45,486 nt of DNA. Origin: Paeniroseomonas aquatica. GTDB lineage: Bacteria; Pseudomonadota; Alphaproteobacteria; Acetobacterales; Acetobacteraceae. Below the pieces are notes generated by a model, which worked only from the letters and a program-made list of their open reading frames with translations, did no database searches and had not been told where the DNA came from. Below are positions 1,262-4,575 of the stretch, one piece after another (position 1 is the first letter of the stretch; the number at the start of each line of letters is the position of its first letter). Where the stretch lies: contig NZ_JAUFPN010000194.1 of the NCBI RefSeq assembly GCF_030409335.1, positions 1 to 45,486 on the forward strand. The letters run 5' to 3'. Made by a program: the position numbers and the translations under genes.

Positions 1262-1284
1262 GGGGGCGAAACAGGCTCGACGCG
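1262..1284 (+). ncRNA. ssrA: tmRNA coding piece, 5' exon (23 nt)
   Basis: The 5' end of the coding RNA: GGGGGCG is the acceptor strand, followed by AAACAGG and CTCGACG, the D-loop-like part typical of tmRNA. It ends with CG at 1283-1284, directly before the intron's GTGCG. This short exon keeps the acceptor-stem strand, so the tRNA-like fold and RNase P site could form even before splicing (inference). Confidence 0.87.
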
Positions 1285-1880
1285 GTGCGCCGGAAGGCGC
1301 TTGTTCTTTGACTTTTTAATCTGTGAGAACTTGGTTCTCCGGGGTAGCTGACGCCGCCCCGTGGTCATTCGGCTTACCTGAGGGGGAAACCCCGAAGGGG
1401 ACCTTAGCATGCCGAAAAAGCCGTGGATGAGGCAAAACTTCCTAGCCTCTGAGCGGCGAGACCAAAACCTGCATGGTGAAAGCTGTATTGCTTCAATCCT
1501 AGTCCTAAGTGGTTGTAATCTGACGGAACCTCAGGGAAGTTCGAGGGGTTCACTCGTCCATGGAGAGGGGAATAGCTCAGTCGCCCACTCTCAGTCAGCC
1601 AGGACGGGCACACTGCCAATCGGCAGTTCACGGGACGAACGGGACACCTAAACAGGTTGGATCAGAAGGACAGGCCACTCCGGGACACCCTAAACAGGGG
1701 CAACCCTGCATGGGTGCAGAGGACTCGTACTAGCCAAATGCCCGGCGTAATGGCCGGGACAGCCAGCCGCGAGGCTGGATCACCTAGGGGATAAGTCCGG
1801 TAACTCCGGACGAAACCGCCGATGGCGAGGTGAAGGGGTCTAGGGTGCCTACAAATCCGAACATGAATGGAGGGATGCTG

Positions 1881-3713
1881 ATGCTTCCGGATACCGTTCA
1901 GAAGCGGATGGACAAGATACCGGCTCTCGTTCTGGCCGGTAAGCGAGTGAATGGCCTTCACCGACTTCTCGTGTCACCCGCCCTATGGCGAAATGCCGTG
2001 GAACGGGTGCGCAAGAACAAGGGCTCTTCCACGCCCGGCATCGACAACGAAACGTTCGACGGTCTCACGACCGCCACCGTCTCGGGTTGGGTCGATAAGC
2101 TGGTGGAGCGGCGATACACGGCGCAACCGGTCAAGCGCGTGTACATCCCGAAACCAAACGGTAAAGAAAGGCCGCTCGGGATACCCACGATTTCGGATCG
2201 CGTGTTACAAGACGTGCAACGGGTCATACTGGAACAAATCTACGAACCGGTCTTCTCAGATCGGTCCCATGGGTTTCGACCGGGACGGTCCTGCCACACG
2301 GCCCTGGAACAACTCCGCTACTGGGCTGGCACGAAATGGTTCGTCGAGGTGGACATAAAAGGATACTTCGACAACATCGACCATGACGTGCTCCTAGAAC
2401 TGATGCGCAAGCGGGTTGACGATGAGGACTTCCTCAAAATCATTCGCAAGCAACTCAAAGCGGGGGTGATGGAGAAACGGACGCTTACGCCGACCTACAG
2501 CGGTACCCCGCAAGGGGGCATCGTTTCGCCTATCCTGGCTAACGTGTACCTCCATGAGCTTGATATGCACATGGAAGCACTCATGGCCGGGTTTAATCGC
2601 GGTAAGGTCCGAAGGGCTACGCCTCTGGCGAAGAACCTCTCGGAGCTAGCGCGACATAGGCGGCGCAAAATCGACGCCCTTGGCGACGATGAAGCAAGTA
2701 CGGTTAGGAAGAAGCAACTCCTTACCGAGATCGAGGAACTGATTGCGCGACGGAACGCAGTACCTGCCTCCGACCCGCACGATCCCACCTTCCGGCGAAT
2801 GCAGTACATGCGGTATGCTGACGACTTCCTAATCGGAATGGTTGGTACCCGCGAAGAAGCACTCGCCACGCTGGAAAACGTCCGCCGATTTCTGAAAGAC
2901 ACGCTCCATCTGGACGTGGCCGAAGATAAGACGCGGGTAGTACCGGCATCCGAGGGGGTAATGTTCCTAGGGTACACGATCAAGACCAAGACGGGATCAC
3001 GAGAGACGAAGCGGGTCAGCGGGAACGCTACGTACAAAATACGTAGTCCTTCGGACCGGATCACACTCAGTGCCCCGGATTCTAAACTGCGAGCTTTTTG
3101 TCAACGACACCGATATGGGGATTACGATACGGCCATCGGTAAGGCACGACCGGAACTCCTTCATAGCTCAGACTTCGAGATCGCGGTGATCTTCAACGCC
3201 GAGTTGAGAGGTCTTGCTAACTACTATCGGCTAGACAAGCATGTGAAGCGGCACCTGAGTAAGTTACATTGGGTGTGGCAGCAGAGCTTTGCGCGGACTC
3301 TTGCTAACAAGCACCAGAGCACCGCATTGCAGCAGTTGGCCCGGTTCAAGGTGCGACCGGGGGTCTACATCGTGACGCACAGCCAAGGGGAGGGTAAGGA
3401 CCCACTCCGCGTGCAGCTATGGAACCTGTTTTCCGGTCTTCGGTACGTAGGAAGACCGGCGACAAATCGTTCGGTGGACGAGTTTCCGACTGAGCGTAAT
3501 TTCGCGTATGTCAGGACCGATATCACGACCCGCCTTGCAGCCAAGCAGTGCGAAAGCTGTGGGGAAGCCGGGGAGGTTGAGGTACACCACGTCCGCAAGA
3601 TGGCGGACATGGCGAAGGCCCCTTTCTTTAAGGGCCTGATGGCATCGCGGACCCGCAAGTCGGCCGCTCTCTGCCCTACGTGTCACCGCAAGCTGCACGC
3701 GGGCCTCTTGTAA
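1881..3713 (+). CDS. ltrA: group II intron reverse transcriptase/maturase with HNH nuclease motif
   Basis: The intron-encoded protein that helps splicing and copies the intron into new DNA sites. In order: RT blocks with NGKERPLGIP and HGFRPGRSCHTAL near the N-terminus, VDIKGYFDNIDHD, GTPQGGIVSPILAN, and the catalytic YADD at about residues 312-315. Then come a maturase X segment (FNAELRGLANYYRL) and a C-terminal HNH-type finger beginning CESCG at about residue 557 and ending CPTCHRKLH. The frame is open from a GTG at 1830. I prefer ATG 1881 because GGAGGG at 1869-1874 stands six bases before it. The length (610 aa) is normal for RT-X-En proteins. The YADDFL form and HNH tail suggest a chloroplast-like class (inference). 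Confidence 0.95.
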   Translation: MLPDTVQKRMDKIPALVLAGKRVNGLHRLLVSPALWRNAVERVRKNKGSSTPGIDNETFDGLTTATVSGWVDKLVERRYTAQPVKRVYIPKPNGKERPLGIPTISDRVLQDVQRVILEQIYEPVFSDRSHGFRPGRSCHTALEQLRYWAGTKWFVEVDIKGYFDNIDHDVLLELMRKRVDDEDFLKIIRKQLKAGVMEKRTLTPTYSGTPQGGIVSPILANVYLHELDMHMEALMAGFNRGKVRRATPLAKNLSELARHRRRKIDALGDDEASTVRKKQLLTEIEELIARRNAVPASDPHDPTFRRMQYMRYADDFLIGMVGTREEALATLENVRRFLKDTLHLDVAEDKTRVVPASEGVMFLGYTIKTKTGSRETKRVSGNATYKIRSPSDRITLSAPDSKLRAFCQRHRYGDYDTAIGKARPELLHSSDFEIAVIFNAELRGLANYYRLDKHVKRHLSKLHWVWQQSFARTLANKHQSTALQQLARFKVRPGVYIVTHSQGEGKDPLRVQLWNLFSGLRYVGRPATNRSVDEFPTERNFAYVRTDITTRLAAKQCESCGEAGEVEVHHVRKMADMAKAPFFKGLMASRTRKSAALCPTCHRKLHAGLL

Positions 3714-3746
3714 AGGACGGGGCCAAGTTCTCATTAGGCACAGTGA

Positions 3747-3843
3747 AAGCCGGATGCATCGAAAGGTGCCCGTCCGGTTTGGGGTGGGGTCTTCGTGCGG
3801 TCGAGTCGGGCAACCGGCTAGGTTCGCGGGGTACCTACACCAT
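3747..3843 (+). other. intron domains V and VI (catalytic helix and branch point)
   Basis: Domain V is 34 nt (3747-3780), with AGC at 3748-3750 near the start, a GAAA tetraloop at 3761-3764 and pairing arms CCGGA/TCCGG; this is the most conserved part of group II introns. Domain VI follows: GTG (3784-3786) pairs with CAC (3838-3840), and GGGT (3787-3790) pairs with ACCT (3833-3836), leaving A3837 bulged as the branch point. The intron ends at AT 3842-3843. Confidence 0.88.
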
Positions 3844-3998
3844 CGTGGTAAAGAGGCCGCTTTTGCCCGGCATGGTTCCGCCGTCATCGGGCCGATTCTA
3901 AGTGCGAACGATAACAGCCGTGAGGCTGTCGCACTCGCTGCCTAGGAATAGGTAAGCGCGGTTCGGGGGGCACCGGGCAACAGAAGCCCCCCACTCAG
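3844..3998 (+). ncRNA. ssrA: tmRNA coding piece, 3' exon with tag frame
   Basis: This is the rest of the coding RNA. A pseudoknot-like pair GCCCG/CGGGC precedes the tag region, as PK1 does in other tmRNAs. The tag reading frame starts at GCG 3904 and stops at TAG 3943-3945. A G6/C6 hairpin (3965-3992) follows and may double as the last pseudoknot or the terminator stem. The 3' end near 3998 is estimated. Confidence 0.87.
3904..3945 (+). other. proteolysis tag reading frame of tmRNA
   Basis: The resume codon GCG begins a 13-residue frame, ANDNSREAVALAA, followed by TAG. With the alanine carried on the tmRNA, stalled proteins would receive A-ANDNSREAVALAA. The AND start and the LAA end are the conserved parts of SsrA tags: LAA is read by ClpX, and the N-terminal part by the SspB adaptor encoded 145 bases downstream. 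Confidence 0.9.
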
Positions 3999-4089: not shown

Positions 4090-4575
4090 ATGAGCGATTC
4101 GCCGGCCCGGCCAGACAGCCTGTTGCCCTACGCCCTCTGGACCGAGGAGGCGCTGCGCGCCGTCGTGCGGGACGCCCTCGTCCATACCGCCAAGCACGGC
4201 CTGCCCGGCGAGCACCACTTCTACCTGACCTTCCGGACCGACTTCCCCGGCGTCGCCATCCCCGGCCATCTCAAGGCGCGCTACCCGCAGGAGATGACCA
4301 TCGTCCTGCAGCACAAATTCTGGGACCTGGCCGTGGACGGCGGCGCCGGCACCTTCTCGGTCGGCCTGTCCTTCGGCGGCGTGCCCGCCATGCTCACCGT
4401 CCCCTTCGCCGCGCTGACCGCCTTCGCGGACCCGCACGTGCGCTTCGGGCTGCGCTTCCAGGCGACCGCGCCCGAGGTGCGGGCCGAGCCGGAGCCAGAG
4501 GCCGCCCCCGCCCCCGCCGCCGGGCCGCAGGTCGTCAGCCTCGACGCCTTCCGCCGCCGCCCCGCCCGCGACTGA
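4090..4575 (+). CDS. sspB: ClpXP adaptor SspB (alpha type)
   Basis: Binds SsrA-tagged proteins and delivers them to the ClpXP protease in the cytosol. The 161-aa protein has the SspB fold signature segments GEHHFYLTF, MTIVLQHKFWDL and FSVGLSFGG..MLTVPF in the first 120 residues. An acidic, Pro/Ala-rich linker follows, and then a short basic tail (SLDAFRRRP) in the place where SspB proteins carry their ClpX-binding peptide. ATG 4090 is preceded by a G-rich Shine-Dalgarno at 4073-4081. It lies directly behind ssrA on the same strand, past a terminator, and is probably expressed from its own promoter in the AT-richer stretch 4007-4072. Confidence 0.93.
   Translation: MSDSPARPDSLLPYALWTEEALRAVVRDALVHTAKHGLPGEHHFYLTFRTDFPGVAIPGHLKARYPQEMTIVLQHKFWDLAVDGGAGTFSVGLSFGGVPAMLTVPFAALTAFADPHVRFGLRFQATAPEVRAEPEPEAAPAPAAGPQVVSLDAFRRRPARD

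Follow-up and report, generated by a model that had tools for sequence, protein, structure and literature searches.

The window analyzed here is a 45,486-nucleotide (nt) stretch of the Paeniroseomonas aquatica contig NZ_JAUFPN010000194.1 and represents the first half of this 91-kb contig, which belongs to a 6.5-Mb draft genome of 313 contigs, 98.65% complete and 1.95% contaminated. Near its start lies a permuted, two-piece transfer-messenger RNA (tmRNA) gene that is split by a complete-looking group II intron, an arrangement that the analysis confirms as real. All parts of the locus are on the + strand and follow one another in the order acceptor piece, 25-nt spacer, 23 nt of the coding piece, intron, and remainder of the coding piece. 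The acceptor piece (about 1157–1236, with an approximate 5′ end) forms the 3′ half of the tRNA-like domain and carries its CCA at 1234–1236; it is matched by the Rfam family RF01849 and is near-identical in six congeners, including an identical T-arm stretch. The spacer (1237–1261) was delimited by congener alignment, and its 25 nt compare with 4 to 6 nt in those six genomes. Exon 1 of the coding piece (23 nt, 1262–1284, placed by Rfam and the congener alignment) contains the 5′ acceptor strand, the D-loop, and the first part of helix P2. After the 2559-nt intron (1285–3843), exon 2 (3844–3995) supplies the rest of P2, P5, a pseudoknot, the tag, and the final pseudoknot, as identified by an RF01849 match and by ARAGORN on the joined exons.

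The covariance-model matches bracket the intron on both sides. Rfam alpha_tmRNA (RF01849) matches the + strand twice, at 1157–1313 (111.6 bits) and 3792–3995 (74.1 bits), both above the gathering score; tmRNA_permuted (RF04321) matches 1177–1305 with 75.9 bits, also above its gathering score; and Intron_gpII (RF00029) matches 3745–3843 with 52.8 bits against a gathering score of 40. The initial annotation, made from the letters alone, had proposed a permuted tmRNA broken after 23 nt of its coding piece by a sense-oriented group II intron, and these matches bear it out. It had placed the locus at 1262–3998, which is correct for the start of the coding piece but leaves out the acceptor piece and its CCA upstream. 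It had also described the tag frame as continuing past the intron. The tag frame (3904–3945, encoding ANDNSREAVALAA followed by TAG, from ARAGORN on the joined exons) indeed lies after the intron, but it sits wholly within the downstream exon, so the intron leaves the tag unbroken. What is interrupted instead is the 5′ strand of helix P2 in the tRNA-like domain, where four of the strand's six paired bases precede the site (read by eye on the Rfam pairing line).

The intron has the expected anatomy of a mobile group II element. It begins with GTGCG at 1285 and ends with ...CCTACACCAT at 3843, in agreement with the GUGYG/AY rule; its ends were set by the empty-site alignment, and further evidence for the intron comes from RF00029 and from the GTGCGCC start and domain I blocks shared with relatives. 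Domain V spans 3745–3779 (end approximate), and domain VI with the 3′ splice site spans 3780–3843, both from the RF00029 alignment and folding. The candidate branch point is A3837, which the Rfam alignment leaves unpaired; the minimum-energy fold pairs it and leaves A3839 free instead, so this assignment is tentative. An intact open frame at 1830–3713 encodes a 627-residue protein, counted from a GTG start taken from a mechanical listing (a more internal start is possible), with reverse transcriptase (RVT_1), maturase (Intron_maturas2), and AI2M-like HNH domains. The protein passes the NCBIfam model TIGR04416 (group_II_RT_mat) at 313.2 bits against a cut-off of 300, so that the intact reverse transcriptase–maturase–HNH protein of the initial annotation stands. 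Its closest solved structure is LtrA of the Ll.LtrB intron (5g2x, E 6.3e-105; the next is at 3.3e-45). Judged by search score, this best match points to the mitochondrial-like (ML) class, which is linked to IIA RNA in the accessible text of PMC4424553.

The boundaries are defined to the base by comparison with empty sites. Eight genomes of the genus were searched: six congeners carry an uninterrupted tmRNA gene that scores 225.6–232 bits against RF01849 in one piece, and G006, the eighth genus genome (75% complete), gave no RF01849 match. When position 1284 is joined to 3844, the product aligns without a gap at the site with all six congeners and reads CTCGACGCG followed directly by CGTGG. The letters beside the two intron ends differ, so a shift of the boundary by a single base destroys the congener match. 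ARAGORN calls a permuted tmRNA on the joined exons, with the tag ANDNSREAVALAA found in all six congeners, and calls no tmRNA gene on either the unspliced stretch or the window. The splice boundary of the initial annotation, 1284/3844, is thus the one recovered by alignment. Alternative boundaries near the intron ends were considered by eye; none recovers the congener sequence.

The split gene is the only tmRNA gene found. In this 98.65%-complete genome, RF01849 matches this locus alone, and the standard tmRNA model RF00023 yields nine tRNA-sized matches, the best reaching 35 bits where the cut-off is 47; the second intact ssrA that the initial annotation had named as a risk to its reading is therefore not seen. 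The partner protein SmpB is encoded by an intact 162-residue frame. The tmRNA gene is adjoined by sspB (4090–4575, + strand; Pfam SspB PF04386, E 2e-42), whose frame is likewise intact, and a relative of sspB follows the tmRNA gene in the six congeners too. In E. coli, SspB delivers tmRNA-tagged proteins to ClpXP. Upstream of the locus, thyX lies on the opposite strand.

We used these observations to build a working model, to which we assign a probability of roughly 60%: the single-copy permuted tmRNA gene received a mobile group II intron of the ML class (IIA-like) in sense orientation, and this intron is spliced out to restore the two-piece tmRNA. The whole locus, from the acceptor piece through the spacer and intron to exon 2, would be transcribed as one RNA, from which the maturase would also be translated. 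Helped by this protein, the intron ribozyme would excise itself and so join 1284 to 3844. The spacer would be excised by tRNA-processing enzymes, and the two mature pieces would then pair as in other Alphaproteobacteria. Transcription, splicing, the order of maturation, and any reliance of trans-translation on splicing are all inferred from the DNA anatomy. The chances are about even for a further-reaching view, in which the locus represents a fourth form of tmRNA gene whose coding piece would exist only after group II self-splicing, making the main ribosome-rescue RNA of the cell dependent on a ribozyme and a maturase from the same transcript, with possibly slow or conditional splicing setting its level.

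Several observations weigh against this working model, and most concern how the intron would recognize its exons. In 15 relatives, exon-binding site 1 (EBS1), located in an aligned hairpin loop, forms 4 to 6 of the 6 possible pairs with its own intron-binding site 1 (IBS1), whereas mismatched EBS1/IBS1 pairs of relatives reach a mean of 2.7 of 6 (four or more in 43 of 198). For the window intron, the delta-compatible register yields 3 of 6 pairs, which is the chance level. Scored by duplex energy, the true EBS1 partner is matched or bettered by 15.6% of 10,000 random sites; for EBS2 the share is 77% of 20,000, and for both combined 35% of 20,000. The true site ranks 69th of the 285 scored in the joined tmRNA region. 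Outside exon recognition, the intron is present in only one of the eight genus genomes searched, and the genome encodes a third RF-1-domain protein of 141 residues with a GGQ motif, an ArfB-like back-up rescue factor, so loss of tmRNA could be survivable and dependence on splicing is unproven. The suggestion of the initial annotation that a host with only this copy would depend on splicing is not established, given the chance-level EBS1/IBS1 pairing and the encoded back-up.

The aligned loop at 1575–1583 offers an equivocal candidate: delta at G1575 and EBS1 at 1576–1583 with a bulged A1579. With this one base bulged, 6 of 7 pairs form in addition to delta in a register set by hand, and by eye a bulge at the same place seems to be needed in two relatives, L042 (one base) and L040 (three bases). 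The EBS2 candidate (AGUU, 1538–1541), whose potential partner is exon positions −11 to −8, is weak and was placed by eye from the alignment register. The EBS1 energy test discriminates poorly, since 12 relatives span 0.6% to 50% of random sites and 4 of the 12 exceed 10%. Delta fits exon position +1, allowing G-U, in the 13 relatives in which both were noted; the loops and registers were set by eye partly with the delta rule, so this fit is no independent test. No stretch of 1285–1860 forms five or more contiguous pairs with IBS1, whether at offset 0 or at offset 1. Six positions in 1285–1830 pair at 5 of 6 without a bulge, two of them with a fitting delta, and all lie outside the aligned EBS1 hairpin. 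Efficient splicing is thus neither proven nor excluded by sequence.

The state of the exons limits how old a non-functional gene could be. We compared 259 positions, 255 from the mature pieces and 4 from the spacer, with the six congeners. The window differs from its congeners at 6 to 12 of these positions, and the congeners differ among themselves at 1 to 11. It is unlike all six at four positions: two spacer letters and two core letters (T and A). At the two core positions the window has the letters of six outgroup tmRNAs, and by eye these two letters seem to be stem partners in the final pseudoknot. The mature pieces therefore contain no derived private substitution, where changes shared with any congener are not counted. 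The neighboring sspB is only 51–61% identical to the six congeners at four-fold sites, and if these sites reflect neutral change, an unconstrained gene would have gathered about 85 changes over the whole separate lineage. With zero of some 85 expected changes, constraint ended, if at all, within roughly the last 4% of the lineage, as an order of magnitude. Clean exons beside diverged sspB four-fold sites imply that the intron is either spliced or very young; the cell thus either splices the intron to obtain a working tmRNA or lost the gene very recently.

The second of these outcomes is the principal rival, and we consider it possible but distinctly less probable than splicing. According to this explanation, a very recent ectopic insertion is poorly or not spliced, the tmRNA is lost or strongly reduced, ArfB covers ribosome rescue, and the exons are too young to have decayed. 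In its favor are EBS1 and EBS2 pairing no better than chance, the presence of the ArfB-like protein, and the distribution of the intron, which all six congeners that have a tmRNA gene lack and which is unseen in the family and class surveys described below. Retained SmpB and undecayed exons fit splicing and very recent insertion equally well. Against this rival stand the retention of SmpB and the complete look of the intron and its protein. The undecayed exons would also confine the loss to that last 4% or so of the lineage, which would mean that this genome happened to be sampled very shortly after the insertion. Partial or conditional splicing, with the intron as a control element and the level of active tmRNA set by the maturase or by conditions, is improbable; weak exon pairing next to an intact maturase on the same transcript could mean slow, maturase-dependent splicing, but the arrangement was seen in no other species searched. 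Least probable of all is an assembly or binning artefact, which the fragmentation of the draft into 313 contigs would allow but which is hard to reconcile with a first junction 1.3 kb inside a 91-kb contig, exons that are complementary halves of one gene, an insertion whose boundaries obey group II rules, and the presence of an sspB relative downstream in the six congeners too.

The surveys returned no second case. The family survey covered 299 genomes (a match in 279) and the class survey 387 (a match in 370), the window's own genome being included in both; no other tmRNA split by such an intron was seen in either. Completeness of at least 90% was asked for the class survey. In the family, 15 genomes with low, double, or missing matches were re-searched and 6 gave a match, while 11 of the 20 genomes without a match were outside the re-search; in the class, 14 were re-searched and 12 gave a match, with 14 of the 17 genomes without a match outside it. 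In both surveys, splitting was judged among the matches listed, with the best E-value available for each matching genome. The negative does not extend to the weak or second matches of G283, G142, G226, G355, G380, G570, G598, G642, G393, G681, and G735. Five low scorers are cut by contig ends: G058 and G116 have coordinates at base 1, the loci of G421 and G705 stop at the end of the match, and G088 is the fifth. The tmRNAs of G421 and G705 read through the insertion site, and in all five the sequence past the cut is invisible. The match in G578 is full-length at 114.6 bits. A same-site pattern scan of genome contigs, which required the exact exon letters and may not have covered the window's own genome, returned 20 stretches, none with an intron protein (tblastn, 1e-5); by eye, 17 of the 20 are uninterrupted tmRNA genes and three (L019, L032, and L033) are other DNA. 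The insertion is precise and, so far, unmatched.

Other tmRNA loci in the surveys have peculiarities of their own. G226 and G735 (L099 and L115) have a second tmRNA match above the cut-off, at 168.4 and 216.8 bits. The permuted tmRNA of G639 (L106, about 1620–2170) contains a spacer several hundred bases long that by eye is made of repeats, resembling a repeat-bearing spacer in the accessible part of PMC11915505. In two draft genomes of different families (L109 and L110), the locus ends at the same tmRNA position (...GTAAAG), probably a contig end; this shared stop may be a sign of repeats or of integrated elements at the tmRNA gene.

A single copy of the intron was found in the genome (a second match covers 38 bases), and the nearest full-length protein relatives, about 42–48% identical, are in family genomes and on alphaproteobacterial plasmids. 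No full-length protein above 48% identity was found in the 299 family genomes, where a partial relative (L044) reaches 53% over 275 residues, and among 385 class genomes none besides the window's own reached E 1e-100. Viral contigs gave three distant relatives. Among the 40 matches listed from a plasmid search limited to 5000 records, the relatives are 42.6–46.5% identical. Across 17 aligned relative loci, the 5′ region starts with GTGCGCC in 16 and GCGCGCC in one; domain I blocks and domain V align with the window. The 5′ intron regions in two family genomes (L040 and L041) and a Komagataeibacter plasmid (L072) are near-identical. Four sphingomonad-type plasmid relatives (L074, 1–5833; L076, 1–5860; L079, 1–5860; L083, 1–5851) lie near genes for ArdC or a zincin-like metallopeptidase, and that of L079 sits between two ArdC/zincin-like pieces, which suggests that this neighborhood is a recurrent target of the plasmid relatives. 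The genome also encodes a further, distant group II-like reverse transcriptase (G000:C246:99610-100170; 41% over 181 residues) in an open frame of 568 residues.

A group II intron in the sole tmRNA gene found would show that a strongly selected structural RNA gene can take in a retroelement, and a single RNA would be permuted, matured in two pieces, and spliced. The locus would offer a natural test of the splicing efficiency of a bacterial group II intron whose removal the host requires; if the intron is not spliced, the locus would capture a large genome in the course of losing its tmRNA. An annotation blind spot is exposed as well, with the gene missed by ARAGORN and reported as two fragments by Rfam. 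The initial annotation gave no precedent for a group II intron in a permuted tmRNA, and among the titles and abstract openings listed in a literature search that reached few subscription papers, we likewise found none describing a tmRNA gene with a group II intron. The portions available of PMC4131195, PMC4524492, PMC8919778, PMC4424553, and PMC3984707 describe none.

The 2025 survey by Nawrocki, Petrov and Williams (PMC11915505) covers 97,179 tmRNA sequences and, in its accessible text, distinguishes standard, group I intron, and permuted forms; the term ‘group II’ occurs zero times in its main text, and its authors allow that introns at other sites may have escaped them. The only tmRNA introns reported in that text are group I introns, of which 883 unique sequences are counted; all of them lie in the T-psi-C loop, and their form is kept separate from the permuted one. 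The likeness to the locus described here is that of a ribozyme intron needing splicing for a working tmRNA. The present locus differs in that its intron is of group II, encodes a reverse transcriptase/maturase, and lies in P2 of a permuted gene; it contains no group I intron in the T-psi-C loop, the feature that defines the group I intron form. With permuted alphaproteobacterial tmRNAs (RF01849/RF04321), the locus shares the acceptor–spacer–coding order, the CCA end, and the ANDN tag start, and it departs from them in its longer spacer and in a coding piece split by 2559 nt of intron. With Ll.LtrB/LtrA and the ML (IIA) introns of alphaproteobacterial plasmids, it shares an LtrA-like reverse transcriptase–maturase–HNH protein, the GTGCG start, domains V–VI, and the position of the EBS1 hairpin. 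According to the review PMC4424553, bacterial group II introns mostly reside outside housekeeping genes, and several of the plasmid relatives sit beside or between ArdC/zincin-type genes, whereas the window intron occupies a tmRNA gene.

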